From Bacteroidales bacterium (lineage in GTDB: Bacteria > Bacteroidota > Bacteroidia > Bacteroidales > VadinHA17): 39,028 nucleotides of DNA. The position numbers were made by a program, and so were the translations under genes. The stretch covers positions 1 to 39,028 of the forward strand of contig JAAYQC010000050.1 of NCBI GenBank assembly GCA_012519515.1, read 5' to 3'. The notes beneath the pieces were generated by a model, which saw only the letters and a list, made by a program, of their open reading frames with translations, did not search any database and was not told the origin of the DNA. How positions within the stretch are numbered: the first letter of the stretch is position 1; the number at the start of each line of letters is the position of its first letter. Positions 14,778 to 36,659 of this stretch are shown piece by piece.

Positions 14778-16208
14778 TCACTTAATCACCTCAATGTCAA
14801 ATATCTCATTCCTATCCATGTTGAGCCAGTATTTGATCGAGTTTTTACGTACCAGTTCCCAGTAGGTGTTGCTGTCGAGGCCATACACGAAGTTGAACTC
14901 CTTCAGTTCGGAGATGACCTTTTCGGCCAGTTCGGGTTTAAGAGAAAGCCTGATAGTCCGGTTGTAGTAGGTGAATTCTGCTGCCGGTCTTGCAGGCTGG
15001 TCATTCACAACCGTAAGCAGACCGTGACCCGGTGTGGCGCCTGTACTGACCTGTATCCCATCGTTAAAGCAGCTGATTGGAGGCGTTGAACCAGCCAGGG
15101 ATCTGACATGGAACTCATCCACTCCGGTGGCGAAGTACTCCCTCGCCCTTATACCCATTTTTACCCCGATGACGGTAAACACCCCTAGATGACGGTGAAG
15201 CTCATTTGAAATCACTGATGAACTGAACTCATCAATACCGTGTTTTTCAATAATGGCAGTGACCGATCCGCTCAGGTCGTCGAAATAAAAATCCGGATCG
15301 GCAGAAAACTCCTTTATAACCTGGTTTCTGGGTACTGTTTCGCCTTTCAGTATCTTCAGGGTGTTTTCCCTTAACCCGGCCGGATCTGAAGGGATGCAGT
15401 CGGTAACATTACCCAGGGTTTTGCAAATGAATAATTCCGGGTAATGAAGAAACAGCGCTGTCATTTCATCGTTGGCTTCAAGGGCGAATCTGTGACTTTC
15501 AGAAAAGTCCGACACGGAACCGGCTGCTTTGGCGTAGCGGGTGTTTATGGCTTTAACAGCTTCAGTCAGTTCATTGTCCCAGAAAACAGAATTGTTGAGC
15601 ATATATTTCCGCACGATCTTCACGGGGATTTCCTGTTTCAGCATGGATACGGAAGATTTTGCGTCAATGTTGTAATTGAAACCGGTTTTGTCGTCAGCCC
15701 CGTCGGCGCTCCAGATGAAATCCTTTACCTGATTGCCGAACTCAGGAATGTTCCTGAGAGCATTAAGAGCAGTCGACATACTTCCGAGGCAGATGAAGCT
15801 GAGCTTAGTTTTTTCTACTCTTATTATTTCTGAAATAATATCGTTAGAGTTTCCGGCAGAAGACGGATCTATTCCTTCCTCATCACCCCAGCGGGCATTC
15901 AGTGCAGCAGGGAACTCCGGCGATCTGAAGCTGCCCAGCCGGTTGATGCCGACCGGAATTCCTTCATGGTGGAATGAGTTGAGAAGGCTTTTTACCTTGA
16001 TGAAAGCCTTGTCGGCAGGAAGGGCTCCATTTGAAACTGTGACGGCAAGAAGCCTTACATCGGGCGATGCCAGAAGCATTGAAATAGTTCTGATGTCGTC
16101 GATGCCTCCATCGGTGTCGACTATCACGTAGTGTGATGGTTTCCAGGGATGCGCGCTGACGGCAAGCGACAGCAGAAAATATGCGGACATAATAAGAAGT
16201 CTTTTCAT
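14778..16208 (-). CDS. Exported nucleoside-hydrolase-like protein with C-terminal FmdE-like domain
   Basis: From the ATG at 16208 the protein is 476 residues with a signal peptide (MKRLLIMSAYFLLSLAVSA); the frame extends 17 codons further without improving it. Residues 26-290 look like an inosine/uridine nucleoside hydrolase: VIVDTDGGIDD (28-38) is the DxDxxxDD calcium and ribose site, followed by LLAVTVSNG and NDEMTALFLHYPELF (about 246-260), resembling the second metal-site region. Residues about 318-470 resemble FmdE: LHRHLGVFTVIGVKMGIRA is like the family's HGHLCPGLVIGYRMG, and SCFNDGIQVSTGATPGHG is like CAVDAIQVVTGCTLGKG, but the CP of the first motif and the cysteine of the second are missing. 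The role is probably periplasmic nucleoside or related glycoside cleavage; the function of the second domain is unknown. Confidence 0.7.
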   Translation of the reverse strand: MKRLLIMSAYFLLSLAVSAHPWKPSHYVIVDTDGGIDDIRTISMLLASPDVRLLAVTVSNGALPADKAFIKVKSLLNSFHHEGIPVGINRLGSFRSPEFPAALNARWGDEEGIDPSSAGNSNDIISEIIRVEKTKLSFICLGSMSTALNALRNIPEFGNQVKDFIWSADGADDKTGFNYNIDAKSSVSMLKQEIPVKIVRKYMLNNSVFWDNELTEAVKAINTRYAKAAGSVSDFSESHRFALEANDEMTALFLHYPELFICKTLGNVTDCIPSDPAGLRENTLKILKGETVPRNQVIKEFSADPDFYFDDLSGSVTAIIEKHGIDEFSSSVISNELHRHLGVFTVIGVKMGIRAREYFATGVDEFHVRSLAGSTPPISCFNDGIQVSTGATPGHGLLTVVNDQPARPAAEFTYYNRTIRLSLKPELAEKVISELKEFNFVYGLDSNTYWELVRKNSIKYWLNMDRNEIFDIEVIK

Positions 16209-16287
16209 CAGTATAATATTGATTTTAACACTACCACGTTCGGACCGGATAATCCACATAACTGAAATTTAAACAAATACGTGTAAG

Positions 16288-16473: not shown

Positions 16474-18006
16474 ATGAAGAAATTCCTTTTATGGTTCACG
16501 CCCGGTCTTATCCTGGGCATTGTCATTGTACTGGGTGCCGGAAAGGCCCTGGATGCCACATCGACAAATGATTATTGCCAGTCGTGCCATATTCATCCGG
16601 CTGCCGACATGAGCTGGAAAAGCTCGGTTCACTATGAGACTAACAGCGGCTACCGGGTTGCTTGTGTCGAATGCCATCTGCCGCCGAAAGGCCAGGGCTA
16701 TCTCTGGGCGAAGGGCACGACAGGGCTTCGCGATCTCTGGAGTTACTACACTAAGGATTCCGCATCATTTGACTGGGATGAAAGGGGAAGGCTCGAGGTT
16801 GCAAGGAGGCACGTCTACAACAGCAGCTGCCTCAAGTGCCATGAGAATCTTTTCCCCCCTGAGCTTACCAAGGAAGGAGAGGATGCACACTTATATTACA
16901 CGCAGCAGGAGGAGAGTCCCGATCTTCACTGTATCAACTGCCATCTGAATGCAGGTCATTACATTGAAGGTTACACCCATGGAAGCAATGTCACATTCGG
17001 GAGCGTATCATCTGCGCCGAAGGAAGTGTTTAAGGAAGCGACAACTGTAACTGAATTTGTGAACTATACCGAGAATATACCGGGTTCGCCGGTTTCATTC
17101 AACATGATAGCCATCCCGGGAGGTACTTTTAACATGGGAAGTCCCGATGATGAACCTTTCAGGAGGCCGGATGAAGGCCCGGTAAGGGAAGTTGAAATAA
17201 GTCCTTTCTTTATGGCAGAAATTGAGGTTACCTGGGATGAGTATCTGGCATTTTATGCCCAGACATCAGCTGAAGGACGTTCGACCGATACTGAAGGGCT
17301 GAGATCAGGAATGGCAAGTGATGTTGATGCCATTTCCGGAGCCACTCCGCCTTATGGCCAGCCCGACCAGGGATGGGGAATGGGGCAGAGGCCTGCAATT
17401 TCATTCACCTTCCATGCTGCCGAGACTTACTGCAGATGGCTGTCGCAGGTCACGGGAAAAACCTACCGTCTTCCCACTGAAGCGGAATGGGAATATGCCT
17501 GCCGTGCCGGCTCCAGCGGCCCCTATTTCTTTGAAGGAAATCCGAAAAAATTCGAAAAATCAGGCCTGATGGCTAAGCTTTCCAAAAACGATACCTCGCT
17601 TATCAATACCTATGTTATTTATAAGGAGAACAGTCCATCGAAGACTCAGACTCCCGATCTTGTCAGGCCCAATCCATTCGGTTTGAAGAACATGCTCGGG
17701 AACGTTGCAGAGTTCTGTTCCGACTGGTATCAGGCTGATGCCTACAGCCAGTACCCTGAAGGCCTGATAAGGGATCCGAAAGGACCTGAGAGCGGGGAGG
17801 AACATGTTGTAAGAGGAGGCAGCTTCCTGAACAGTGCCGGATTGCTCAGGAGCGCAACACGCGACTATACCAGGACGGAAGCATGGCTTCGGACCGATCC
17901 ACAGATCCCGAAGAGTATCTGGTGGTATTCCGACTGCTTTAATGTCGGATTCAGGGTTGTTTGCGAATTTGACGAAAAGACAGGTAATCTTAGCTCCTCT
18001 GAATGA
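16474..18006 (+). CDS. Tetraheme NapC/NrfH-like cytochrome c fused to a SUMF1/PvdO-like domain
   Basis: The 510-residue protein has an N-terminal membrane anchor (about 5-24) followed by four CXXCH heme sites: CQSCH (35-39), CVECH (64-68), CLKCH (119-123) and CINCH (153-157). The first half resembles NapC/NirT/NrfH quinol-oxidising cytochromes, so it should face the periplasm and take electrons from the quinone pool. From about residue 208 (MIAIPGGTFNMGSPDDEPFRRPDEGPVREVEI) to the end (RGGSFLNSAGLLRSATRDYTR ... VGFRV) it is a SUMF1/FGE-sulfatase fold domain with YRLPTEAEWEYACRAG and GNVAEFCSDWY. The paired copper cysteines near the C-terminus of true formylglycine-generating enzymes are absent, so sulfatase activation is unlikely. 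It stands alone 470 bases upstream of susC and divergent from the preceding gene. Its partner and electron acceptor are unknown. Confidence 0.85.
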   Translation: MKKFLLWFTPGLILGIVIVLGAGKALDATSTNDYCQSCHIHPAADMSWKSSVHYETNSGYRVACVECHLPPKGQGYLWAKGTTGLRDLWSYYTKDSASFDWDERGRLEVARRHVYNSSCLKCHENLFPPELTKEGEDAHLYYTQQEESPDLHCINCHLNAGHYIEGYTHGSNVTFGSVSSAPKEVFKEATTVTEFVNYTENIPGSPVSFNMIAIPGGTFNMGSPDDEPFRRPDEGPVREVEISPFFMAEIEVTWDEYLAFYAQTSAEGRSTDTEGLRSGMASDVDAISGATPPYGQPDQGWGMGQRPAISFTFHAAETYCRWLSQVTGKTYRLPTEAEWEYACRAGSSGPYFFEGNPKKFEKSGLMAKLSKNDTSLINTYVIYKENSPSKTQTPDLVRPNPFGLKNMLGNVAEFCSDWYQADAYSQYPEGLIRDPKGPESGEEHVVRGGSFLNSAGLLRSATRDYTRTEAWLRTDPQIPKSIWWYSDCFNVGFRVVCEFDEKTGNLSSSE

Positions 18007-18476: not shown

Positions 18477-21400
18477 ATGAAAAAAACTCCCAACTGCTTT
18501 TGGTCCCAGTGGCCAGATGTAAGTTTTCGCAGGTTACTACTGCCTGTGAAAATTGTGGTAATTCTTCTGTTCTGCGGTCTGGTGATGCCTGCCCATTCGC
18601 TGGCTGCAGATAATCTGCAACAGGCAACCGTAACAGGTACAGTGACCGATGCCGCAACCGGCGAGGCAATGGCCGGTGTGAACATTCAGGTCAAGGGAAC
18701 CACCCAGGGCGCCATCACCGACATTGCCGGCAAGTATACGATAGCGAATGTTGACGGGAATGCAACCCTTGTCTTTTCGTTCATCGGATACGTAACCAAG
18801 GAGGAAGCCATTGCAGGCCGGTCAGTGATTGACATGGCTCTTAACCAGGAAATTACCGACCTTGACGAAGTTGTTGTAGTGGGATATACCACTCAGAAGC
18901 GTGCAAACGTAGTAGGTTCGGTAACCTCGCTGTCAGGTGAGGGCTTGACTCAGATTCCGGCAGCCAACATTAACAATGCTATTTCCGGCCGTCTTCCCGG
19001 TACGACCATCATGCAGGGCAGCGGTGAGCCCGGTCAGCAGGCTCCGAGAATTATGATCCGCGGACGTTCGACTCTTGGAGCATTAAGTGACGGGTATACC
19101 AACCCGCTCATTATTATCGACGGTGTTCAGGGTCGTTCAATGGACGAGCTTGACCCATCAGATATCGAGAGTCTGTCTGTTCTGAAGGATGCTTCTGCTG
19201 CAATCTACGGTGCAACTGCTGCAAACGGTGTTATTCTTATCACTACCAAGAAAGGTCAGGAAGGAAGACCGAGGCTGAACTACCAGTTCTACCAGGGCTT
19301 TATGACACCGACCATTATTCCCGATGTTACCAATGCTGCAGAATATGCAACCATGCTTTCGGAATATCAGGTGGCAAACGGCAAGAACCGCACATACAGC
19401 GATGAGGATATCAGGCTTTTCGCTTCAGGTGAAGATCCATGGGAACATCCCGACACCGACTGGTATGGCGACCTGATCAAGAAATGGACCGGAACAGCCA
19501 AGCACAACCTGTCGATTGACGGCGGAAACAGGGGAATGACTTACTACGTATCCCTTGGTTATAAGACAGATGATGCCATTTACAAAGCTTCATCAACCAA
19601 GTACAAACAATACAATATCCGTACAAAGGTTGAAATGCCCATTACCGATTGGTTGAAAACAGGGATTGACGTTGCAGGCTTCCTTGTGAACCGCGTTTAT
19701 CCTTATAAATCAGCTGATGCCATTGTAGGTCAGTCAACCCGTCTTGTTCCTACCAGCTGGTCATTCTGGCCCACGGGCGAACCAGGCCCTGATATCGAGT
19801 ACGGAGACAACCCTGTTGAGACCTCAACTTTCTCGGCCGGTAAGAACGACCAGAAAACATACAGGCTGCTGAATACACTGACCTCTACCATTACGGTTCC
19901 TTTTGTACAGGGGCTCTCATTTACCGGATCATTCAGCTTTGACCTGACCAACTATTACCAGAAGGCCTTCTATCAGCCATGGGTACTGTACTATCCGCAG
20001 TGGGAAAATGCCGTGCGCAATTCCCAGGGCTATATCACAAGCATGCCTTTAACACCAACGCTGAGAGGTCTTTCATCACCTCAAAACAATGAGAGGTATG
20101 ACAGGACGATAAACCAGACTGTTAACCTGAATGCAATGTATCAGAAACAGTTTGGAGGTCACAACATAACACTGTTTGCAGGTTATGAGCAGTATACAAA
20201 TGATTACAACAGGCTGCAAGGCTTCAGGCAGTATTATATCTCATCGCTTATCCAGACAATGGATGCCGGCGCTGATCAGGATAAACATACTGAAGGCTTC
20301 AGCACTATTTATGCAAGGAAATCACTTATCGGAAGGGCAACCTACGACTTCAGGGGCAAATATCTTGCTGAGATAGTCTTCCGTCGCGACGGATCCCTTA
20401 AGTTCCCGGAACACAGCCGTTGGGGCAACTTCCCCGGCTTCCTGCTCGGGTGGAGAGCATCTGAGGAAGATTTCTGGAAGAATAACATTGGGTTTATCAA
20501 CTATTTCAAACTGAGAGGATCGTACGGTAAGATGGGTATGGACCCCGGAGCTGCTTTCCAGTATATGAACAAATTCGGTCTCTCGAGCGGTATGGTCTTT
20601 GGAACCGGCAGCTCTATTGAAACCACGCTAGGTCCTCCTTCGGTTGCAAACCCGAATATAACATGGGAAACACAGACCACCCGTAACATTGGATTTGACT
20701 CGAAATGGTTCAATGACCTGATAACTCTTAACTTTGATTACTTCTTCAACAAGAGGGAGGATATCCTTACGGAAAGGGATGCTTCGGTTCCCAACTTCAC
20801 AGGTCTTTCACTGCCGCGCGAAAACATTGGTGTGGTAAATAATAAGGGCTTTGAAATTGAGGCAGGTTTTCACAAGAGCCTTACTCCTGAACTGAGACTT
20901 GACATTACAGGCAACTATGGTTTTGCAAGGAACAAGATCGTATTCTACGATGAGCCTGCAAGGGTGGTTCCGTGGCAGGTTCGCACCGGACATCCTTACG
21001 GATCAATTCTGATGTACAACGCTATAGGCATCTTTGAAAATGAGGCGGCTCTCGAATATCCTCACTGGACAGGTGCACAGCCGGGTGACGTGATCTTCGA
21101 GGATGTGTCGAAGGATGGAATAATCAACAGTGATGACATGATTCTCTTTGACAATACGGATTCTCCCGAAACATTCTACGGAGTTTCAATTGAAGCAACC
21201 TGGAAGGATTTTTCGCTTCAGGCACAGATCCAGGGACAGGGTAAATTCCTGAGGAGAAACTACTATGACAACAGAAGGGGTGAAGCCGGTAACTATTTCC
21301 AGTGGAACTACGACAACAGGTGGACGCCAACAAATACCAAGACGAACATTGCAAGGGCTTACAACAGGAATGACTATTACTGGAGCCTGGAGGTGAACGA

Positions 21401-21638
21401 CAGCAATTACTGGTATGACAACACAGCATACTGCCGTCTGAAGAACGTGGTTCTGACATACACCCTTCCTCAGAATCTGTACAGGGGCCTTGGCATATCA
21501 AGGGCCAGTGTTTATGTATCGGGTAACAACGTGGCTCTCCTCTGGACAGCGACCAGGAAATTCGACCCTGAAGGCGGCGGCGCCGGTGCTTATCCTCTTC
21601 TGAAGACATATGCCATAGGAGCGAATATTACGTTTTAA
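18477..21638 (+). CDS. SusC/RagA-family TonB-dependent outer-membrane transporter
   Basis: The 1053-residue outer-membrane receptor has an N-terminal extension and signal peptide (about 1-44), a carboxypeptidase-D regulatory-like domain (about 51-124: GTVTDAATGEAMAGVNIQVKG), the SusC signature TonB-box region DEVVVVGYTTQKR (about 130-142), a plug domain with ISGRLPGTTIMQGSGEPG, MIRGRSTLGA and SVLKDASAAIYGATAANGVILITTKKG, and a long beta-barrel ending in ANITF, with the C-terminal aromatic expected for BAM insertion. It works with the SusD partner encoded 29 bases downstream to import a ligand bound on the cell surface. The DUF4880/FecR anti-sigma docking domain (STN) is missing at the N-terminus, consistent with no sigma/anti-sigma pair nearby. 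The substrate cannot be deduced from sequence. Confidence 0.96.
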   Translation: MKKTPNCFWSQWPDVSFRRLLLPVKIVVILLFCGLVMPAHSLAADNLQQATVTGTVTDAATGEAMAGVNIQVKGTTQGAITDIAGKYTIANVDGNATLVFSFIGYVTKEEAIAGRSVIDMALNQEITDLDEVVVVGYTTQKRANVVGSVTSLSGEGLTQIPAANINNAISGRLPGTTIMQGSGEPGQQAPRIMIRGRSTLGALSDGYTNPLIIIDGVQGRSMDELDPSDIESLSVLKDASAAIYGATAANGVILITTKKGQEGRPRLNYQFYQGFMTPTIIPDVTNAAEYATMLSEYQVANGKNRTYSDEDIRLFASGEDPWEHPDTDWYGDLIKKWTGTAKHNLSIDGGNRGMTYYVSLGYKTDDAIYKASSTKYKQYNIRTKVEMPITDWLKTGIDVAGFLVNRVYPYKSADAIVGQSTRLVPTSWSFWPTGEPGPDIEYGDNPVETSTFSAGKNDQKTYRLLNTLTSTITVPFVQGLSFTGSFSFDLTNYYQKAFYQPWVLYYPQWENAVRNSQGYITSMPLTPTLRGLSSPQNNERYDRTINQTVNLNAMYQKQFGGHNITLFAGYEQYTNDYNRLQGFRQYYISSLIQTMDAGADQDKHTEGFSTIYARKSLIGRATYDFRGKYLAEIVFRRDGSLKFPEHSRWGNFPGFLLGWRASEEDFWKNNIGFINYFKLRGSYGKMGMDPGAAFQYMNKFGLSSGMVFGTGSSIETTLGPPSVANPNITWETQTTRNIGFDSKWFNDLITLNFDYFFNKREDILTERDASVPNFTGLSLPRENIGVVNNKGFEIEAGFHKSLTPELRLDITGNYGFARNKIVFYDEPARVVPWQVRTGHPYGSILMYNAIGIFENEAALEYPHWTGAQPGDVIFEDVSKDGIINSDDMILFDNTDSPETFYGVSIEATWKDFSLQAQIQGQGKFLRRNYYDNRRGEAGNYFQWNYDNRWTPTNTKTNIARAYNRNDYYWSLEVNDSNYWYDNTAYCRLKNVVLTYTLPQNLYRGLGISRASVYVSGNNVALLWTATRKFDPEGGGAGAYPLLKTYAIGANITF

Positions 21639-21667: not shown

Positions 21668-23575
21668 ATGAAAAAATTACTTTATTATATCATTGCAATT
21701 GTGATGCTGATGCTTCCGGTCACGTCGTGCGATGACGTTCTCGACAAGCAATCGGTGGACTCGTTTAACGAACAGGTTGTTTTCTCAGACATAAACGTGG
21801 TAAAAGCCTATCTGGGTAAATGCTACGACAGGATGGGAGGCAATACCAATGCCGGAATCCTCGGGATGCGTGAAGACCTTTTGTCATCCGCGACCGATCA
21901 GACACTCTGTATCCACAGGCCTGCCAACTATGTCAACCTGAAAGGAACCCAGAGCCCCGACCAGCTTGGATTCTTCGCGAGTAACGGCATGGGGGGTTAC
22001 CTCAGATGGCCGAACCTGTATGCAAACATTCAGAATATTAATAACATTCTTGCCAATATTGATGATGTTCCGCTTACAGCAGGTCAGGATGTCCTGGCAA
22101 GGCGTCTTAAAGGTGAAGCCTATTTTCTCAGGGCATTTGAGTATGCCACTCTCCTTATGCTTCACGGAGGTGTCATTCTTTCATCCGAGCCATGGGAACT
22201 AGGTCAGGATTACTCGACAGTTAACAGGTCGACAATTGCCCAGACTCTTGAGTTTGTTCTTGCTGATATTGCTTCGGCGATTAACATTCTGAAAGATTAT
22301 CCCACCATTGAGCAGGGCAGGGCCAGTATGGGAGCTGCAGCTGCACTTAAATCGAGGGTATTGCTTTTCTGCGCCAGCGAGCTTACCAATGGCGGATTTC
22401 AGCCTTCCAATACACTGGTTTCATTCCCGGCAGGAAACCGCGAAACACTTTTGCAGCAGGCAAGGGATGCCGCCAAGGATGTAATGGATGGTGACTATGG
22501 CGACTATTCACTGGTTGGCTCCACCGATGATCCGGCTCTACCTCTTACCGAGGCTCAGGTCCAGGCTTATTCGGACAATTACTACAGTATTTTTACACAG
22601 CATGGCAAATGGAACAGTGAAACTATCTGGGCTATCCAGTATCCGCTGACAGGTGGCAACTACATTACCACGAACAGGTGGAACGGTCCCAACGGTTATC
22701 ACAACTGGGGTAACAACGGCCCGACCGAGCCTGCTGTAAGAAGCTTTGAAATGGCTGATGGAACGCCTTTCGTATGGGATAACGGCCAGGGTGAATACCT
22801 GCGTACAGCGACAGCCGCCCAACTGGCTGCCGATCCCCTGCTAAATCCCTATAACGGACGCGAACCGCGCTTCTACGCTATTGTTTTATATCACGGCGCT
22901 CCATGGCAGGCACGTCCTTCCGATGCTGCCGCGTTCGATCCCTACAACAAGGTGCAAACCGGGTCTTTCTACAATCCTGACGGCACTCTGATAATTGCAG
23001 GGGTTGATACCCGCCAGGGCCTTATCGAGGCATGGAACGGCACAAAATCCGGATACTACCTGAAGAAACTGATGGATCCGGCAACACAGGGCCAGTATTT
23101 CAACAATACCAACCATTGGGTTGAGTTCCGTTATGCAGAGATCCTGCTTAACTATGCCGAGGCTTGTATTGAACTTGGCGGAGATAATCTTCAGCCAGGT
23201 CTTGATGCTCTCAACATGGTAAGGAACCGTGCCGGACTTCCCGACAGGGTAACCGATGACCAGGATGAGGCCAGAGCATTCGTGCGCCATGAAAGAGCCA
23301 TCGAGTTCTTCGCCGAAGGACACCGCTTCTGGGATCTCCGCCGCTGGATGGAGTCCGAAAATGTAGTTGAAGATGTGTACGAGATGAAAGTCAGGGAATA
23401 CAGCAACGGAGACTTTGAATGGTACTATGCTGCTGATCTTTCAGAAGGCGCGCATAGAGAATTTGCAAGGGCTGATGCAAGGCAATGGGGAGGCGATCAT
23501 TTATACTGGCTGCCCATACCTCGCGACGAAATGAACAAAGCACCTCAGCTCGTTCAGAACCCGGGGTATAATTAA
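21668..23575 (+). CDS. SusD/RagB-family surface glycan-binding lipoprotein
   Basis: Surface lipoprotein of 635 residues that caps the SusC barrel and binds the ligand. The signal peptide ends in a lipobox LPVTSC (Cys21) followed by DD, fitting outer-membrane export. The N-terminal helical tetratricopeptide-like repeats include GEAYFLRAFEYATLLMLHGGVIL, and the conserved SusD C-terminus is clear: YAEILLNYAEACIELG, LNMVRNRAGLPDR and VRHERAIEFFAEGHRFWDLRRW. It is 29 bases after susC and ends at a strong terminator. It is longer than average owing to loops rich in Tyr, Trp and Asn (residues about 290-420), likely the ligand face. Confidence 0.95.
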   Translation: MKKLLYYIIAIVMLMLPVTSCDDVLDKQSVDSFNEQVVFSDINVVKAYLGKCYDRMGGNTNAGILGMREDLLSSATDQTLCIHRPANYVNLKGTQSPDQLGFFASNGMGGYLRWPNLYANIQNINNILANIDDVPLTAGQDVLARRLKGEAYFLRAFEYATLLMLHGGVILSSEPWELGQDYSTVNRSTIAQTLEFVLADIASAINILKDYPTIEQGRASMGAAAALKSRVLLFCASELTNGGFQPSNTLVSFPAGNRETLLQQARDAAKDVMDGDYGDYSLVGSTDDPALPLTEAQVQAYSDNYYSIFTQHGKWNSETIWAIQYPLTGGNYITTNRWNGPNGYHNWGNNGPTEPAVRSFEMADGTPFVWDNGQGEYLRTATAAQLAADPLLNPYNGREPRFYAIVLYHGAPWQARPSDAAAFDPYNKVQTGSFYNPDGTLIIAGVDTRQGLIEAWNGTKSGYYLKKLMDPATQGQYFNNTNHWVEFRYAEILLNYAEACIELGGDNLQPGLDALNMVRNRAGLPDRVTDDQDEARAFVRHERAIEFFAEGHRFWDLRRWMESENVVEDVYEMKVREYSNGDFEWYYAADLSEGAHREFARADARQWGGDHLYWLPIPRDEMNKAPQLVQNPGYN

Positions 23576-26935: not shown

Positions 26936-27126
26936 ATAGAATTTTAGTATCTTTGTGTCAACTAACAAATGTAGCAATAAAAAGTATTACAGCACGCCAT
27001 TGATGCCTGTCGTTCTCTGACGCAAAGTAATGGAACAGCTTTACCGGCCAGTCCGGAGGCGGATAATAAGAGTTTGAGGGGAAGGAGAATGAGTTTCTGT
27101 TAAAAAACTTTAAATTCATTTGAATC

Positions 27127-27221: not shown

Positions 27222-28628
27222 ATGAAAAAATCGAGTATCTCAAGACGTAATTTTCTTGGCAAGGCAGCTACAGTTGGTGTGGCAGGAGTTGTCGTTCCGA
27301 CGATCATAACAAGCTGTGCCCGTGAAACAAAGAAAGTTGTTGAAGTTCCCACTTTCCTCGACCAGGCTCCCGACGGTCCCGTGCTCAAGGCAGGGATAAT
27401 AGGTTGTGGCGGCCGCGGAACCGGAGCAGCCCTCGACTTTCTCAATGCCGGTCCGAATCTTCAGGTGACCGCTCTTGGCGACACATTCCAGGACCGTGTT
27501 GACAGCTGCAAGGCAAGGATTCTCAAGGAGAAGAATCAGGAAGTTCCGGCCGAGAATTGCTTTGTAGGTTTTGATGCTTACCAGAAAGTTATCGATTCGG
27601 GAGTTGACATTGTTATTCTTGCAACCCCTCCGTTCTTCCGTCCGGAGCATCTTGCAGCCGCGGTGGCAGCCAAGAAGCATATCTTTGCCGAGAAACCGGT
27701 TGCAGTTGATCCTACAGGAGCAAGGTCGGTAATGGCAACAGCCAAGAAGGCTGAAGGACTGGGACTTAGCATTGCAACGGGAACACAGCGTCGTCACCAG
27801 CGCGACTATGTTGCCAACTGGCAGCAGGTTCAGCAGGGTCTGATAGGCGAGCTTGTCGGTGGTAATATATGGTGGAACGGCGGTAAGCTATGGCATCGCG
27901 ACAATAATCCGTCATGGAGCGAAATGGAATGGATGATCCGCGACTGGGTTAACTGGACATGGCTTTCAGGTGACCATATCGTTGAGCAGCATGTTCACAA
28001 CATCGACGTTGCCCACTGGTTCTTCGGAGCATATCCGGTCAAGGCAGTCGGTATGGGATCGCGCCTCCGCAGGGTAACAGGCGACCAGTATGATAACTTC
28101 AGCATAGATTTTGTGATGGAGAACGGTGTTCATATTCACAGTATGTGCCGCCAGATTAACGGATGTGCAAATAATGTTTCCGAAAGGCTTCAGGGAACCA
28201 AGGGTTCAACAAATTGCCGGAACACTATACTTGACCTGGCAGGAACAGAACTGTGGAAATATGAATATCCGCTTGATGCCGACGGCAAGCCCACCGGAAG
28301 TGTAAGCGTCGATCCTTATGTACAGGAGCACATCGACCTTGTCACCGCGATCCGTACGGGAAATGTATTCAATGAACTGGAGGCCACGGCAATATCGACC
28401 ATGGTAGGTATCATGGGGAGGATTTCGGCTTATACAGGAAAAGAAACCACGTACGAGGAAATGATGAACTCCGACCTCAAGCTTGGCCCGGAAGTGTTTG
28501 TATTTGGTCCGGTCGATATTCCCAAGGAAGTTCCGATTGCAGGAGAAGCATACCAGCCTCCGACACCCGAACAACTTGCCGCGCAGGCCAAAAGAAGAGC
28601 AGCAGCTGCTGCTGCAGCCAATCAGTAG
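27222..28628 (+). CDS. Tat-lipoprotein Gfo/Idh/MocA family oxidoreductase
   Basis: The 468-residue NAD(P)-dependent oxidoreductase of the glucose-fructose oxidoreductase family carries a twin-arginine leader (ISRRNFLGKAA, residues 6-16) ending in a lipobox-like IITSC (Cys32). The Rossmann motif is GIIGCGGRGTG (about 58-68), the family's catalytic segment AEKPVAVD (about 156-163), and HNIDVAHWFFGAYP is the typical substrate-domain motif. It is exported folded with its cofactor. The last 20 residues are Ala-rich, an odd low-complexity tail. The TIM-barrel gene follows 29 bases later, before a terminator, so the two act in one pathway. In Bacteroidota such pairs take part in exported sugar oxidation, including 3-keto sugar chemistry; the substrate here is unknown. 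Confidence 0.9.
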   Translation: MKKSSISRRNFLGKAATVGVAGVVVPTIITSCARETKKVVEVPTFLDQAPDGPVLKAGIIGCGGRGTGAALDFLNAGPNLQVTALGDTFQDRVDSCKARILKEKNQEVPAENCFVGFDAYQKVIDSGVDIVILATPPFFRPEHLAAAVAAKKHIFAEKPVAVDPTGARSVMATAKKAEGLGLSIATGTQRRHQRDYVANWQQVQQGLIGELVGGNIWWNGGKLWHRDNNPSWSEMEWMIRDWVNWTWLSGDHIVEQHVHNIDVAHWFFGAYPVKAVGMGSRLRRVTGDQYDNFSIDFVMENGVHIHSMCRQINGCANNVSERLQGTKGSTNCRNTILDLAGTELWKYEYPLDADGKPTGSVSVDPYVQEHIDLVTAIRTGNVFNELEATAISTMVGIMGRISAYTGKETTYEEMMNSDLKLGPEVFVFGPVDIPKEVPIAGEAYQPPTPEQLAAQAKRRAAAAAAANQ

Positions 28629-28657: not shown

Positions 28658-29602
28658 ATGAATAATTCGAGAAGAGATTTTATAAAAAAAGCTACGACAG
28701 GTGCTGCGATTCTGGCAGCACCTGCCATTTTAGGCTCTGCCAAAGCCTCCGGACAGGTTAGGGCGGCAGATGCCGTTGCACCCTTCAAGCTGAAATATGC
28801 TCCGAGTCTGGGCATGTTCCGGCAGCACGCGGGACAGGATCCCATAGATAATATAAAATTCATCCACGATCAGGGATTCAGGGCCGTCTTCGACAATAGC
28901 CTCATGAGAAGGGAACCTGCTGTGCAGGAGAAGATCATGAACGAACTTAACCGCCTTGGGATGGATTTCGGACCCTATGTCCTCAGGGCCGATTCGGGCA
29001 AACAGGATTTTGTCCTTAACAGCCAGGAGGTTCGTGATATGCTGATCGCCCAGATGAAAGAGGGAGTTGAAGTATCCAAAAGGACAGGGGCAAAACAGGC
29101 GCTTATTGTTCTTGGCCGTTATGATATGAGACTTCACATGGATTATCAGACAGCCAATGCTATTGACAACCTGCGCTATTGCGTCGACATAATGGAACCT
29201 GCAGGTGTTACACTGGTTCTTGAGCCTCTGAATCATCATACCAATCATCCGGGATTGTTTCTGAAAGGGATTCCGCAGGCCTATGCAATATGCAGGGCGG
29301 TAAATTCACCCGCCTGTAAGATAGTAAATGACCTTTACCATCAGCAGGTAAGAGAGGGTAACCTTATCCCGAATCTTGAGATGGCATGGAGCGAGATCGC
29401 TGCAATCCATCTTGGAGATAACCCGGGGAGAAATGAGCCCACCACTGGTGAGATCAACTACAAGAATATTTTTAAATTTCTGTACAACAAGAAATACGAC
29501 GGGACCCTGTGCATGGAGCACGGGATAAGCCAGAGAGGAACCAAAGAGGGCGAAGCCCGGGTGATACAGGCATACCGCGAATGCGATAGTTTTGAAGTAT
29601 AA
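28658..29602 (+). CDS. Tat-exported sugar phosphate isomerase/epimerase-like TIM barrel
   Basis: A 314-residue TIM barrel of the AP-endonuclease-2/xylose isomerase-like family, with a twin-arginine leader (NNSRRDFIKKATTGAAILAAPAIL) ending near AKASG. Motifs: VTLVLEPLNHHTNHPG (metal and catalytic Glu), KIVNDLYHQQVREGNLIPN, IAAIHLGDNPGRNEPTTGEINYKNIF and LCMEHGISQ. It resembles the exported hydroxypyruvate-isomerase-like proteins, and the one at 8908-9771. Being in the operon of the Gfo/Idh/MocA oxidoreductase, it most likely isomerises or epimerises that enzyme's substrate or product. Confidence 0.86.
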   Translation: MNNSRRDFIKKATTGAAILAAPAILGSAKASGQVRAADAVAPFKLKYAPSLGMFRQHAGQDPIDNIKFIHDQGFRAVFDNSLMRREPAVQEKIMNELNRLGMDFGPYVLRADSGKQDFVLNSQEVRDMLIAQMKEGVEVSKRTGAKQALIVLGRYDMRLHMDYQTANAIDNLRYCVDIMEPAGVTLVLEPLNHHTNHPGLFLKGIPQAYAICRAVNSPACKIVNDLYHQQVREGNLIPNLEMAWSEIAAIHLGDNPGRNEPTTGEINYKNIFKFLYNKKYDGTLCMEHGISQRGTKEGEARVIQAYRECDSFEV

Positions 29603-31312: not shown

Positions 31313-32437
31313 ATGATGAAAAGGTTGATATTATCACCGGTCCTTATTCTGATTTCAATAATCCTTTCCCTCAGTTCATGCCGTCAGGGGCCCCGTCTCT
31401 TCGTTGGCGGTTTCACCGAAAGGGAAGGAGAGAAAGCCATGGCGGTTTTTGAATTCAATCCCGGAAGCGGCAAGCTCAAGTATATTTCTTCAGCCGATGT
31501 AGGTCCGAGTCCGGCTTATTTTTGCTTTTCTGACAGGACAGGGCTGTTTTATGTCATTAACGAGGTGATGGAATTCAGGGGAGAGTTCGGAGGAGGGTTG
31601 TCGACTTTCAGCTACGATGAAAAGAATGCAGGTTTTGAAAAGCTGAATGAAATGCTTATTCCATATGCCGGGCCATGCTATATTTCGATGTCGGCCGACA
31701 GCGGGCATCTTTTCATAGCCAACTATCCGAACGGCTCGGTGGCTGTGGTCAGGCTTGATGAAAGCGGAGTGCCGGAGACCATCACCGATACCATCCTTTA
31801 CGACAGGAAGTCACCCGACAGATCGCACGCCCATATGATACTCAATGATCCGGCAGGACGCTATGTTTATGTCACCGATCTGGGTCTCAACAGGATATAT
31901 GTTTATGATTTTGACAGCAGGGCAGGAAAGCTGAATCTGCTTGAGAATGGAATCACAAGTCTTCCCAGGGGCTCAGGACCGCGTCATTTTGCATTCAACA
32001 GCGACGGTACACGGCTTTATGTGATTAATGAACTTGGCTCAACAATGATGGTTTTTGCTGTGGAAGAGAATCAGGGGCTCAAGCTGCTTCAGACACTTCC
32101 GACAATGAAGGGAGGAATAGTTGAAAACAATTACTGTGCCGATGTCCATATAAGCAAGGATGGCAGGTACCTGTACGGATCGAACAGGGGCGAAAACAAT
32201 ATCGTCACGTTTAAAATACTTCCCGACGGACTTATAGAGCCTGTCGGTCACAGTTCATGCGGAGGTGACTGGCCTCGTAACTTTGTAATTGATCCTTCAG
32301 GCAGATATCTGATAGTGGGGAACCAGAAATCGGATCAGATTACCGTCTTCAGGATCGGTAAGACAAACGGAATGGCTGAAAAAGCAGTTGATTCAGCAAA
32401 GGTTAAGATGCCGGCTTGTTTGAAGTTTTACGAATAA
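31313..32437 (+). CDS. Lactonase-family (6-phosphogluconolactonase-like) seven-bladed propeller lipoprotein
   Basis: The 374-residue protein has an N-terminal signal ending in LSLSSC, a lipobox (about Cys23), followed by the lactonase/YkgB-YbhE-type propeller: RLFVGGFTEREGEKAMAVFEFNPGSGKL, ANYPNGSVAVVRLDESG, SHAHMILNDPAGRYVYVTDLGLNRIYVYDFD, GSGPRHFAFNSDGTRLYVINELGSTMMVFA, SNRGENNIVTFKI and WPRNFVIDPSGRYLIVGNQKSDQITVF. The family includes bacterial 6-phosphogluconolactonases, but a lipoprotein outside the cytosol more likely opens an unphosphorylated aldonolactone or related lactone. It would suit the product of an exported Gfo/Idh/MocA oxidation. It is 74 bases upstream of the glycerol-3-phosphate dehydrogenase gene. 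Confidence 0.88.
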   Translation: MMKRLILSPVLILISIILSLSSCRQGPRLFVGGFTEREGEKAMAVFEFNPGSGKLKYISSADVGPSPAYFCFSDRTGLFYVINEVMEFRGEFGGGLSTFSYDEKNAGFEKLNEMLIPYAGPCYISMSADSGHLFIANYPNGSVAVVRLDESGVPETITDTILYDRKSPDRSHAHMILNDPAGRYVYVTDLGLNRIYVYDFDSRAGKLNLLENGITSLPRGSGPRHFAFNSDGTRLYVINELGSTMMVFAVEENQGLKLLQTLPTMKGGIVENNYCADVHISKDGRYLYGSNRGENNIVTFKILPDGLIEPVGHSSCGGDWPRNFVIDPSGRYLIVGNQKSDQITVFRIGKTNGMAEKAVDSAKVKMPACLKFYE

Positions 32438-32511: not shown

Positions 32512-34071
32512 ATGAACAGGGGATTACAAATACAACAGCTTGAAAGCAATCAATCGCGGGAATGGGATATAATTGTGATTGGCGGTGGCGCCACGGGACT
32601 TGGAACAGCTCTTGATGCTGCAACACGTGGATACAGGACCGTCCTTTTCGAGCAGTCGGATTTCACAAAGGGAACATCATCGAGGAGCACCAAGCTGGTC
32701 CACGGCGGCGTACGGTATCTTGCCCAGGGTGATGTCCTGCTTGTAAAGGAAGCGCTTTATGAACGGGGACTGATGCTAAGGAATGCACCTCATCTCACTG
32801 TCAACCAGGAATTTGTAATTCCAGTCTATACATACTGGGATGTTTTCTTTTACACTGTAGGCCTTAAGTTCTATGATCTCCTTTCAGGCAGACTGAGTAT
32901 GGGGAAGTCGTATTTCATCAATCGTTCGAAGACTCTTGAAAGGATTCCTCCTCTCAAAGCTGAGGGTTTGAAGGGAGGAATTGTTTATCACGACGGGCAG
33001 TTTGACGATTCCCGCATGGCTTTGGCCATTGCATCGGCCTGTGTTAAGAACGGCGGAACGGTGCTTAACTATTTCAGGGTTGACAGCCTTTTGAAGAATG
33101 ATCAGGGCCGGGTCAGCGGAGTTGAAGTCACGGATGTCGAAACCGGAAAGGTATACAATATAAAATCGAAGCTTGTCATAAATGCCACCGGTGTTTTTGC
33201 CGATCAGATCCACAGGATGGATGATCCCTTGGCCCCGGCAACCATAAAGCCGAGCCAGGGAGTTCATATAGTTCTCGACAAGAGTTTCGTGAAGGGCGAT
33301 TCGGCAATCATGATCCCGAAAACCGACGATGGCCGCGTTCTTTTTGCAATACCCTGGTACGGGAAGCTTGTTGTCGGAACCACCGACACTCCGCTTAATG
33401 ATATAAGCCTCGAACCGAAGGCTCTTCAGGAGGAGATTGATTTCATTCTTCGGACAGCCGGAAAATATCTTACCCGGGCTCCCCGGAGGGAGGATGTGCT
33501 TTGTATATTTGCCGGGCTCAGGCCTCTGGCAGCCAATCCCAACAAACCTGAAGCGACAAAGGAGGTGTCGAGAAGGCATAAGATAAGTCTTTCTCGCTCA
33601 GGTCTTCTTTCAATCATAGGAGGGAAATGGACCTCGTACAGGAGAATGGCAGAGGAGACTGTTGACAGAGCCATCAGGGCAGGTATTCTTGAGAAAAGGA
33701 AATGCATGACAAGGAGTTTCAGCTTTTGTTCTCCTTCTGTCAACACAATCCCGGAACAATTCAGGATCTATGGAGACAGGGCTCCCGACATTGTCAATCT
33801 GATTGAGAATGAGCCCGGGATGGCGGAACTGGTGCATCCTAAGCTTCCCTACTGCAAGGCTGAGATCGCGTGGATAGCAGCAAACGAGATGCCGCGGACA
33901 CTTGAAGATATGCTGGCCCGAAGGACGAGAGCGTTGTTCCTTGATGCCAGGGCAAGCGCTGAAGCAGGACCTGTTGTTGCCGGTATTATGGCAAAGGAAC
34001 TGGGATTCGGGAAGGACTGGATTGACAGGCAGCTCCACGATTATGAGAAGGTGCTGGAGAACTATTTGTAA
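32512..34071 (+). CDS. glpD: FAD-dependent glycerol-3-phosphate dehydrogenase
   Basis: Membrane-associated flavoprotein oxidising sn-glycerol-3-phosphate to dihydroxyacetone phosphate and feeding electrons to quinone. The 519-residue protein has the FAD dinucleotide fold IIVIGGGATGLGTALDAATRG (about 20-40), the family signature GTSSRSTKLVHGGVRYL (about 54-70), KPSQGVHIVLDKSFV, AIPWYGKLVVGTTDTPL, and a C-terminal DAO domain ending with LARRTRALFLDARASAEAGP. It is close to the GlpA/GlpD type of bacteria with a single-subunit enzyme. It precedes glpK by 133 bases and glpF by nearly 2 kb in a glycerol module. The symbol glpA would be equally defensible. Confidence 0.93.
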   Translation: MNRGLQIQQLESNQSREWDIIVIGGGATGLGTALDAATRGYRTVLFEQSDFTKGTSSRSTKLVHGGVRYLAQGDVLLVKEALYERGLMLRNAPHLTVNQEFVIPVYTYWDVFFYTVGLKFYDLLSGRLSMGKSYFINRSKTLERIPPLKAEGLKGGIVYHDGQFDDSRMALAIASACVKNGGTVLNYFRVDSLLKNDQGRVSGVEVTDVETGKVYNIKSKLVINATGVFADQIHRMDDPLAPATIKPSQGVHIVLDKSFVKGDSAIMIPKTDDGRVLFAIPWYGKLVVGTTDTPLNDISLEPKALQEEIDFILRTAGKYLTRAPRREDVLCIFAGLRPLAANPNKPEATKEVSRRHKISLSRSGLLSIIGGKWTSYRRMAEETVDRAIRAGILEKRKCMTRSFSFCSPSVNTIPEQFRIYGDRAPDIVNLIENEPGMAELVHPKLPYCKAEIAWIAANEMPRTLEDMLARRTRALFLDARASAEAGPVVAGIMAKELGFGKDWIDRQLHDYEKVLENYL

Positions 34072-34204: not shown

Positions 34205-35695
34205 ATGAAAGATTTCATACTATCATTTGATCAGGGGACTACCAGTTCCCGCGCGATAATTTTCGATCATTCCGGTAAGCCGTTGGCTTCAGCGCAGAAG
34301 GAATTCACTCAGATCTACCCGAAACCCGGATGGGTGGAACATAAACCTGAAGAGATCTGGTCGACACAGATAGGGGTGGCCACAGAGGTACTGGCCAAGG
34401 CCGGATTGAAAAGCACGGATATTGCTGGGATCGGCATTACCAACCAGAGGGAAACCACGGTGGTATGGAACAGGATCACAGGTAAACCGGTTTACAATGC
34501 CATTGTTTGGCAGGATCGCAGAACAGCCGACTTTTGCGACAAGCTTAAGGCTGACGGCGTCGACAAAATGATACTCGAAAAGACCGGGCTGATAGTTGAT
34601 GCATATTTCTCGGCAACAAAGATTAAATGGATTCTTGACAATGTCGACGAAGCTCGCGGACTAGCCGAAAAGGGAGAGCTTGCATTCGGAACCGTTGATT
34701 CGTGGCTGATGTGGAATCTGTCGAGGGGAAAACTTCATATCACCGACGTGTCAAATGCATCGAGAACCATGCTTTTCAATATTCACACGCTTCAGTGGGA
34801 CAAGGAGCTGCTTGATATTTTTGGCATTCCCGAAAGCATGCTTCCGCATGTCAGGTCGTCGAGCGAGATTTACGGCTCCACCGAAGGTCAGTTCTCATCG
34901 GATATCCCTGTTGCCGGGATCGCGGGTGACCAGCAGGCAGCCATGTTCGGCCAGATGTGCATTGAACCGGGAATGGTGAAGAACACTTACGGCACCGGCT
35001 GTTTCATGATGATGAACATCGGCGACAAGCCTATAGCGTCGAAAAGCAGACTTCTGACCACCGTTGCATGGAAGATAGGCAACGAGACACGGTATGCCTT
35101 TGAAGGTTCCATCTTCATAGCGGGTGCTGTTGTGCAATGGCTCCGCGACAGTCTGGGCGTTATTGCAAGGTCTTCCGATGTTGAGGAGCTTGCAGGCAGG
35201 GTAAGCGACAGCGGCGGTGTGTATTTTGTTCCCGCATTTGCAGGGCTGGGCGCTCCCTACTGGAACCAGCATGCCCGTGGAACCATTGTCGGTATCACCA
35301 GGGGTTCCACGACGGCTCACATCGCCCGGGCAGCCCTCGACAGCATAGCCTATCAGACGCTGGAAGTGCTGCATGCCATGGAGAAGGATTCCGGTATTGA
35401 CATCAGGGAACTGAGAGTCGATGGAGGGGCAACAGTCAACAACAGCCTGATGCAGTTCCAGGCCGATTTGCTTCAGGCAAGCGTCATCAGGCCAAAGATA
35501 ACGGAAACCACGGCACTTGGAGCAGCTTATCTTTCCGGACTGGCAACAGGTTACTGGAAGACCGTTGATGACCTTTCGAAGCAGTGGCAGATTGACAGGA
35601 CTTTTGTTCCGGCTCTTGATCAGGAACTTACCGGATCGCTGATAAAAGGCTGGAGACGGGCGATTAAGGCTGCCGAAGCATGGGCGGAGGGATGA
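34205..35695 (+). CDS. glpK: Glycerol kinase
   Basis: ATP-dependent kinase producing glycerol-3-phosphate in the cytosol; 496 residues, the standard FGGY-family length. Motifs: [16 protein letters not shown] at the N-terminus (ATP binding), [102 protein letters not shown], and [22 protein letters not shown]. Its glycerol comes through the GlpF channel encoded 250 bases downstream, and its product goes to the dehydrogenase upstream. A Glu/His or EIIA-type regulatory site cannot be judged by eye. Confidence 0.97.
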
Positions 35696-35945: not shown

Positions 35946-36659
35946 ATGAATCAATTTTTTGCAGAGTTTTTTGGAACAGCCATGATACTTGTCCTTGGAT
36001 GCGGTGTTGTGGCCAATGTTCTGCTACCTAAGACCAAAGGGCATAATTCAGGCTGGATAGTAATAACCTTCGGATGGGCAATCGGTGTTTTCAACGGTGT
36101 TTTGATATCCGCATCAGTCAGCGGGGCTCATCTTAATCCGGCAGTAACACTGGCTCTTGCCATTGCCCACAAGTTCTCATGGGCCAAAGTTCCCATGTAC
36201 ATCCTTGCGCAGATTCTCGGTGCAATGTTCGGTGCCGGCCTTGCCTGGCTTGCATACAAAAAGCATTTTGATGCCTCCGACGATGCTGAAACCAAGCTGG
36301 CAGTGTTCGCCACCATTCCAAACATCAGGAGTTACTGGTACAATGTTATTACTGAGATAATCGGCACCTACGTGCTTGCACTGGCAGTGCTTTACATGGC
36401 TGAGCCGGAGGTGGGACTGGGGGCGCTGAATGCACTTCCGGTAGCGCTGGTTGTTCTGGGTATCGGTCTGGGAGTCGGAGGACCGACGGGATATGCTATA
36501 AACCCTGCCCGTGACCTTGGTCCCAGGATAATGCATTTCCTGCTTCCTATCAAAGGTAAAAGGGACAGCGACTGGCAGTATTCATGGGTTCCTTTTTTTG
36601 CTCCGATGGTCGGAGCCGCGCTTGCAGCATGGATGTTCCTGATCTTTGGCGGTTCCTGA
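35946..36659 (+). CDS. glpF: Aquaglyceroporin, glycerol facilitator
   Basis: Inner-membrane MIP-family channel, 237 residues and six membrane helices with the two half-helices. The NPA motifs are SGAHLNPAVTLA (about 60-70) and GYAINPARDLGPR (about 182-194). Asp after NPAR (D190) is the glycerol-facilitator signature, distinguishing it from water-only aquaporins. It supplies glycerol to glpK. The module order is dehydrogenase-kinase-facilitator on one strand. Confidence 0.95.
   Translation: MNQFFAEFFGTAMILVLGCGVVANVLLPKTKGHNSGWIVITFGWAIGVFNGVLISASVSGAHLNPAVTLALAIAHKFSWAKVPMYILAQILGAMFGAGLAWLAYKKHFDASDDAETKLAVFATIPNIRSYWYNVITEIIGTYVLALAVLYMAEPEVGLGALNALPVALVVLGIGLGVGGPTGYAINPARDLGPRIMHFLLPIKGKRDSDWQYSWVPFFAPMVGAALAAWMFLIFGGS

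Follow-up and report, generated by a model that had tools for sequence, protein, structure and literature searches.

A membrane-anchored tetraheme cytochrome fused to a SUMF1-fold domain: a proposed electron arm for a periplasmic Gfo/Idh/MocA dehydrogenase in Bacteroidales

A 39,028-nucleotide contig of a Bacteroidales bacterium (JAAYQC010000050.1; its whole length is called the window here) contains, at positions 16474-18006 of the forward strand, a single uninterrupted open reading frame (ORF) that starts with ATG and encodes 510 amino acids: a membrane-anchored tetraheme cytochrome of the NapC/NrfH type followed, in the same chain, by a domain with the SUMF1 fold. Its constant companion is the gene for an exported Gfo/Idh/MocA oxidoreductase (Gfo), beside which SUMF1 proteins are also found in families where they carry no cytochrome. 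We propose, with a probability of about 0.6, that the fused protein serves a periplasmic sugar dehydrogenase as its electron arm in the membrane, and that electrons would pass from the sugar to menaquinone through a flavin mononucleotide (FMN) relay. The SUMF1 protein and Gfo very probably form a functional pair, and there is a good chance that the cytochrome is the redox link of the Gfo enzyme. Feature positions are given in Table 1.

The fused protein and its distribution

Pfam finds both domains in the one ORF, Cytochrom_NNT (PF03264) at residues 6-163 (E 4.1e-25) and FGE-sulfatase (PF03781) at residues 210-464 (E 5.2e-45), each well above cut-off. This bears out the sequence-only reading of the region, in which a tetraheme cytochrome ran in frame into a SUMF1-type domain. 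The danger named with that reading, a frameshift or mis-assembly joining two genes, is practically nil, as the identical fusion is present at 80 further loci and 92 of the 117 genomes of the window's family (its own included) give matches at E ≤ 1e-100.

The further loci come from a scan of genome contigs for relatives, in which 115 were confirmed and the best 80 kept; locus counts below refer to these 80 and the window, 81 in all, and the loci and genomes behind the counts are related rather than independent. ORFs were called as the longest open frames, with miscalls at the GC-rich or overlapping loci L125, L129, L134 and L149. The best 80 of the 115 are 54-90% identical to the window's protein, mostly over its full length, and their hosts are Bacteroidales metagenome-assembled genomes and named strains of Mariniphaga, Maribellus and Draconibacterium. 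Cultured hosts include Mariniphaga anaerophila DSM 26910 (L061), a Maribellus strain (L065) and Draconibacterium sediminis (L069), the last with a homologue that reads SGPT at the candidate flavin site described below. Many genomes of the window's family also hold a second paralogue, about 54-59% identical. In wider draws, which are samples, the fusion is rare: it was seen in 3 of 395 genomes from the phylum and, at E ≤ 1e-100, in 2 of 295 from the class, the window's genome being counted in each. The fusion is genuine and common in the window's family.

Two copies stand apart. At locus L057, on a contig labelled Gemmatimonadetes, the fused protein is 63% identical to the window's and its gene adjoins Gfo and TIM-barrel genes, which would reflect mis-binning or transfer between phyla. 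Another copy (G037:C35:1892-3266) is matched in two pieces with four stops inside the second, and is probably degenerate or badly assembled.

The full-length alignment comprises 74 of the 81 fused proteins, the other seven being too short or overlong, and structure alignments cover 43 of the 81 fused proteins and 43 of 54 Gfo proteins. The structure model of the whole fused protein is poor, with a mean pLDDT of 63.

The cytochrome half

The CXXCH codon pattern occurs eight times in the window, against 2.18 expected, and none of 100 shuffles reaches eight. In the fused protein, all eight heme cysteines are kept in each of the 74 full-length sequences, the window's included. The Lys80 and Asp87 pair aligns with a Lys and Asp of NrfH that have a role in its quinol site. 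The first heme motif reads CXXCH-I-His41, with His41 invariant in all 74. For NrfH, the heme 1 motif has been given as CXXCHXM (PMC8840924). Because the fused protein has His where NrfH has Met, it is not NrfH itself; its place in the wider family is unaffected, and by sequence the cytochrome half is a member of the NapC/NrfH family.

NrfA is an unlikely partner for it, since the two NrfA genes of the window's genome are both on other contigs (G000:C71:12630-14571 and G000:C177:11033-12322). The first of these lies directly downstream of another match to the cytochrome half.

The SUMF1 half

Positions 453 and 458, placed by eye, are taken as the counterparts of Cys336 and Cys341 of human FGE; in the fused protein they are Asn453 and Leu458. 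Among the 74 full-length sequences, column 453 is Ser, Asp, Asn, Ala or Met and column 458 is Val, Leu, Thr or Ile. Cysteine never occurs in either, so the absence of the FGE copper cysteines that had been read from the window holds for its homologues as well, none of the 74 having an intact pair; FGE activity was rejected on this ground. Other cysteines of the SUMF1 half are well conserved (of 74, Cys320 in 72, Cys415 in 73, Cys488 in 70 and Cys497 in 73), and the DPQxPKSxWW signature is widely kept.

As a fold, residues 190-500 or so match Treponema denticola variable protein 1 (Z 20.3), PvdO (Z 19.9) and FGE (Z 17.8). The best NCBIfam match is also PvdO (E 4.7e-31), at 107.9 bits against an equivalog cut-off of 500; for GldK/PorK the score is 104.1 bits against 350. 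The SUMF1 half is thus an equivalog of neither.

The Gfo/Idh/MocA partner

When the neighbours of the 81 loci were clustered, the constant companion of the fused gene proved to be a Tat-signal Gfo/Idh/MocA protein of one cluster. It is encoded downstream in 60 of the 81 loci, immediately in 52 and after other genes in 8; in the remaining 21, the available downstream sequence ends after zero to five ORFs, none of them Gfo. Among 20 further regions, Gfo is the next gene in all 18 loci with a called fused ORF, a set that includes the 54-59% identical paralogue and in which four contigs repeat the first set. The fused gene is adjacent to Gfo in both paralogues, and in genomes that belong to three family codes (f1, f3 and f18). 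SusC, SusD and the CXXCH propeller, whose co-occurrence with the fusion the sequence-only reading had marked for a survey, lie between the two genes (together with DUF6057) in five of the eight loci with intervening genes, the window being one of the five. They are a minority feature and were rejected as defining partners, given that 52 of the 60 Gfo-bearing loci have Gfo directly next to the fused gene.

The partner has the sequence marks of its family: the Pfam domain, GxGxxG and EKP. Invariant in 43 of 43 aligned Gfo sequences are the residues of the Tat motif and the lipobox cysteine (Arg8, Arg9, Phe11 and Cys32), the Rossmann glycines Gly61, Gly63 and Gly66, the Glu157-Lys158-Pro159 triplet, and also His259 and Asp262. 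The structure model (pLDDT 83) matches inositol dehydrogenases, glucose-fructose oxidoreductase (GFOR) and aldose-aldose oxidoreductase. By sequence, its nearest solved relative is DgpA1 (E 4.6e-9), a glycoside 3-oxidation enzyme. The window's own genome has a second Gfo relative, 58% identical, at a contig edge (L130:2-1195, G000:C204); its upstream region, perhaps with a second fused cytochrome, is cut off.

SUMF1 proteins without the cytochrome

The draw of 395 phylum genomes gave 45 matches at E ≤ 1e-40, of which 3 are fused and 42 cover the SUMF1 half only. Of the latter, 37 lie in an open frame of 317-440 amino acids, and the 18 of the 42 that were read contain no CXXCH in that ORF; many of these have a hydrophobic N-terminus by eye. 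A Gfo gene of the same family is present within 3 kb in 33 of the 42 SUMF1-only genomes, and in 35 of 44 when the two other fusions are included (the Gfo draw, of 390 genomes, differs from the SUMF1 draw).

In a quick tree of 65 SUMF1 halves, all 42 fused rows fall on one side of a single branch (SH-aLRT 99). The tree is unrooted, has long branches among its non-fused rows, includes 26 of the 81 fused sequences chosen by hand, and leaves out L134 and L135. As Gfo pairing is found on both sides of this branch and the cytochrome on one, the SUMF1-Gfo pairing is probably older than the fusion, with the cytochrome added to an existing pair; the SUMF1 half would then belong to the sugar enzyme. The sequence-only reading had regarded homologues with the SUMF1 half consistently split off as damaging to it. 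Separate SUMF1 proteins do exist in other families, but the fused ones keep together.

That reading had also left two roles for the SUMF1 half, an attached reductase for the cytochrome or a module docking it to a client. The reductase found no support: because the constant companion is a separate exported Gfo, which cytochrome-free SUMF1 proteins of other families keep, the SUMF1 half itself is probably not the missing reductase. Docking to a client is the better of the two.

Some genomes show other arrangements. Two non-fused relatives (L096 and L097) have no Gfo of the partner family nearby; the neighbours tested for the first are YceI, PSD1/PSCyt and DUF1501 proteins, and those of the second look similar by eye, with ApbE in addition. 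In three loci of family f39 (L127, L128 and L131), ApbE directly adjoins a Gfo copy that lacks a neighbouring SUMF1 gene, and TIM barrels come next; the SUMF1-Gfo pair of these genomes is on another contig.

A candidate flavin site

Between an enzyme that transfers hydride and hemes that accept single electrons, a further carrier is required, usually a flavin. The SUMF1 half contains Asp285-Ala-Ile-Ser-Gly-Ala-Thr291, an exact match to the motif D-x-x-[S/T]-G-A-[S/T] of ApbE substrates, in which FMN is attached to the last residue (PMC12052999). The exact motif is present in 57 of the 81 fused proteins, and the looser D..[ST]G[AP]T in all 81; among the other ORFs of the same loci, 4 of 952 have the exact form. 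Of the 44 genomes counted above (42 with the SUMF1 half only and two with the fusion), 12 have a gene for ApbE itself (PF02424, above cut-off) no more than 5 kb from the SUMF1 gene. About 0.28 would be expected, given the sizes of the genomes and how many ApbE genes they hold, an expectation that ignores phylogeny. One of the 12 (G250) has no Gfo gene nearby, and the linkage rises to 20 of 44 when ApbE genes up to 3 kb from any of the listed Gfo copies are included. From the motif and the linkage in relatives, we propose tentatively, at somewhat less than even odds, that ApbE attaches FMN to Thr291.

The non-fused SUMF1 rows mostly read [ST][RLM]P[ST] or ARPS at this site, with the Asp and the final Ser or Thr usually kept; this conserved Ser/Thr is a candidate ApbE target in the ApbE-linked loci. 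No ORF of the ApbE-linked loci that were fetched has the canonical motif, and a scan of 11 of them gave five [ST]GA[ST] strings, none with the Asp and three in Gfo proteins. For the fused loci, Gfo and the TIM barrel were rejected as ApbE targets, as [ST]GA[ST] is absent from 54 Gfo and 26 TIM-barrel sequences. The window's genome has an ApbE gene elsewhere.

Proposed mechanism and substrate

In the mechanism we envisage, the SUMF1 half would be a dedicated docking and relay subunit of the Tat-exported lipoprotein Gfo, physical binding being suggested by the observed linkage. Gfo would oxidise a sugar or glycoside, to judge from the neighbouring genes most likely at C3, by transfer of hydride to bound NAD(P). 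The hydride would pass to a flavin, most likely the FMN on Thr291, from which the four hemes would receive the electrons one at a time; menaquinone would then be reduced by the NapC/NrfH-type half, with its conserved Lys80 and Asp87. In other Bacteroidota, the SUMF1 subunit would serve the same enzyme without a fused cytochrome. With all its parts in place, an NAD-dependent periplasmic Gfo glycoside dehydrogenase, an ApbE-attached FMN on a SUMF1 relay and a fused cytochrome leading to menaquinone would be a new class of respiratory enzyme; that this complete combination is correct is doubtful.

The neighbours lean towards 3-keto-glycoside chemistry. C3 oxidation of glycosides is favoured by the TIM barrel that follows Gfo, by a ThuA protein encoded with a further Gfo protein in a second-paralogue operon (L137), and by L144, where the gene divergent to the fused one scores 884 bits for the BT_2158 glycoside 3-dehydrogenase family, against a cut-off of 750. 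The Agrobacterium pathway combines a Gfo reductase with a 3-keto-glycoside beta-eliminase (AtOGE) and a "sugar phosphate isomerase" (AtHYD, for which the hydratase evidence is preliminary) (PMC10628242); by analogy, the window's TIM barrel is a candidate 3-keto-glycoside lyase or hydratase. GMC oxidoreductases are present in L104 and L106. As the window continues with genes for a glycerol kinase (GlpK), a protein resembling glycerol-3-phosphate dehydrogenase and a MIP channel, the substrate might release glycerol, as a glycosylglycerol would, a suggestion made with low confidence.

Weighing of the evidence

A number of observations weigh against the proposal. The flavinylation motif is not conserved in its textbook form: 24 of the 74 full-length fused proteins have [ST]GPT, with Pro for Ala, and the canonical motif occurs in 0 of 25 non-fused SUMF1 rows, so that the window's protein matches the ApbE-substrate motif and its family as a whole does not. 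ApbE is absent from the 80 fused loci (the best 80 of 115). In three ApbE-linked loci (L106, L111 and L128), Gfo itself has [ST]GA[ST] without the Asp, and replacing this Asp had minor effects only in one substrate (PMC12052999); because it is not strictly needed, Gfo stays a possible ApbE target there, which weakens the flavin reading. Residues 266-310, the span that holds Thr291, are modelled too badly for this residue to be placed. For nine of the 42 SUMF1-only matches, the Gfo list used contains no gene within 3 kb; four of these genomes (G298, G250, G365 and G487) have Gfo elsewhere, four matches (G400, G325, G187 and G214) are long frames of another architecture, and G508 is absent from the Gfo match list. 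With 22.7 bits, where the BT_2158_fam cut-off is 750, the window's Gfo is not a BT_2158 equivalog, which leaves substrate and C3 specificity tentative. As to direction, NapC/NrfH proteins oxidise quinol in the systems that have been reviewed (PMC12285233), and CymA, of the same cytochrome family, becomes a quinol oxidase when a partner binds (PMC6295460).

The last two points would suit the same complex working in reverse, with the cytochrome oxidising menaquinol and Gfo reducing a keto-sugar or another periplasmic carbonyl, as NrfH feeds NrfA. At potentials of about -80 mV for menaquinol and about -320 mV for NAD(P)+, menaquinol cannot readily reduce NAD(P)+, and we think the reverse direction unlikely. 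The Gfo of the Agrobacterium pathway does reduce 3-keto-glucose with NADH (PMC10628242), but CymA alone has an intrinsic quinone reductase activity (PMC6295460), so that flow from sugar to quinone is not exotic. Since NAD(H) chemistry runs downhill to menaquinone and CymA sets a precedent, we lean towards electron flow from sugar to quinone; the suggestion of the sequence-only reading that quinol electrons are spent here appears the less probable, the cytochrome being more likely to receive electrons and reduce quinone.

The SUMF1 half might instead do no more than dock, holding Gfo at the membrane without any cofactor, with a second sugar recycling the NAD and the cytochrome serving another enzyme or redox sensing. 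Its best fold matches include T. denticola variable protein 1 and PorK, which have binding or scaffold roles, GFOR is among the fold matches of Gfo, and in other families the SUMF1 protein that neighbours Gfo has no cytochrome domain. Against this, fusion and Gfo adjacency have persisted jointly in the two paralogues and three family codes mentioned above, and the ApbE genes linked to relatives point to a flavin; we give docking alone a rather small chance. A smaller one still falls to a PvdO-like role, in which the SUMF1 half would itself act as a dehydrogenase, on the product of Gfo or on some other small molecule, and would feed the hemes directly. PvdO is needed for an oxidation in the periplasm by an unexplained electron path, and the purified protein was inactive, with no detectable cofactor (PMC6206403). 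Its standing as best NCBIfam match and the widely conserved DPQxPKSxWW signature speak for such a role, its score far below the cut-off against it; no cofactor site is evident in the SUMF1 half, the His triad of EgtB and OvoA not having been looked for. The electron arm of a sugar dehydrogenase remains our preferred account of the fused protein.

Other genes in the window

The gene upstream of the fused one, on the opposite strand, encodes a nucleoside hydrolase that continues into an FmdE domain, which is otherwise associated with formylmethanofuran dehydrogenase. The cluster of this protein is present in 39 of the 81 loci, mostly in this position, and a stretch reading SC..DG.....G.T.GHGL is kept in more than 97% of 33 aligned members. 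The PD40 propeller lipoprotein between the fused gene and Gfo has kept its CXXCH in all eight members of its cluster, each beside a DUF6057 membrane protein. A search of PHROGs gave nothing of use.

Table 1. Positions of the fused gene, its sequence features and its neighbours in the window
Feature	Position	Strand	Basis or remark
Nucleoside hydrolase fused to FmdE domain	14778-16259	-	
Fused protein: membrane-anchored NapC/NrfH-type tetraheme cytochrome and SUMF1-fold domain	16474..18006	+	510 aa
Cytochrom_NNT domain including N-terminal helix	16489..16962	+	residues 6-163, Pfam; helix 2-29 in model
Heme motifs CXXCH	16576-16590, 16663-16677, 16828-16842, 16930-16944	+	codon-pattern search
K80...D87 pair	16711..16734	+	invariant 74/74; aligns with K...D of NrfH (2j7a, FKAIAGARD)
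SUMF1-fold half	17059..17973	+	residues ~196-500; DPQxPKSxWW signature at 475-484
Putative ApbE flavinylation motif D285-A-I-S-G-A-T291	17326..17346	+	exact motif match
SusC/RagA-type outer-membrane transporter	18477..21638	+	between fused gene and Gfo here and in some related loci
SusD-family lipoprotein, partner of SusC/RagA-type transporter	21668..23575	+	profile match, clustering
PD40 propeller lipoprotein, single CXXCH	25460-26977	-	
Partner enzyme: Tat-signal lipoprotein Gfo/Idh/MocA oxidoreductase	27222..28628	+	PF01408 E 2e-14, neighbour clustering
Tat-signal AP_endonuc_2 / hydroxypyruvate-isomerase-like TIM barrel	28658..29602	+	next after Gfo
Seven-bladed lactonase (PF10282)	31313..32437	+	cluster in 17/81 loci
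Glycerol-3-phosphate dehydrogenase-like flavoprotein	32512..34071	+	below NCBIfam cut-offs; cluster in 13/81 loci
Glycerol kinase GlpK	34205..35695	+	741 bits vs cut-off 590; cluster in 17/81 loci
MIP-family channel, possibly glyceroporin	35946..36659	+	cluster in 11/81 loci

Significance and comparison with known systems

The proposal gives periplasmic Gfo/Idh/MocA enzymes a plausible respiratory outlet and would be a likely answer to how such pathways in uncultured Bacteroidales dispose of their electrons. It also proposes a function for an FGE-like family without the formylglycine-forming cysteines, and bears on the electron path of PvdO. If it is true, the SUMF1 fold, known as oxidase, sulfoxide synthase and binding module, gains a role as flavin carrier, and the 3-keto-glycoside pathway gains a link to the respiratory chain. 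FMN on Thr291 is a sharp, testable prediction. We found no description of the fusion or of the SUMF1-Gfo pairing in the open-licence literature searched, which does not establish its absence from print.

The fused protein shares with NrfH, CymA and NapC the N-terminal membrane helix, four CXXCH motifs and, aligned with NrfH, the Lys and Asp pair; it differs in the C-terminal SUMF1 domain within the chain, in its heme 1 motif (CXXCHxH, not CXXCHXM) and in its link to Gfo. With FGE it has the fold (Z about 17) and the Pfam domain in common, but all 74 fused proteins are without either FGE cysteine. PvdO, one of its two best fold matches and its best family match, is likewise needed for a periplasmic oxidation; the SUMF1 half is far below the curated PvdO score, however, and PvdO has no cytochrome and acts on a siderophore precursor.

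On the side of the sugar enzyme, the partner shares its fold, the Rossmann GxGxxG and the EKP with GFOR and aldose-aldose oxidoreductase. Periplasmic enzymes of the GFOR type recycle their bound cofactor with a second sugar, whereas the SUMF1 partner of Gfo described here bears a cytochrome. The partner is exported, as is BT2158, a periplasmic glycoside 3-dehydrogenase (PMC11300592), without being its equivalog. Known ApbE-flavinylated proteins (NqrC, RnfG, FMN_bind, DUF2271 and DUF3570) have in common with the present system the exact motif, found in the window's protein, and ApbE, linked to its non-fused relatives; flavinylation here is putative, and the words SUMF1, Gfo and NapC are absent from the main texts of two flavinylation papers (PMC8238504 and PMC11334425). 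Coupling of glycoside C3 oxidation to cytochrome c is familiar from the GMC-type glucoside 3-dehydrogenase. In that enzyme the catalytic subunit is a flavin-containing GMC protein, whereas in the system proposed here an NAD-dependent Gfo would work with a separate relay.

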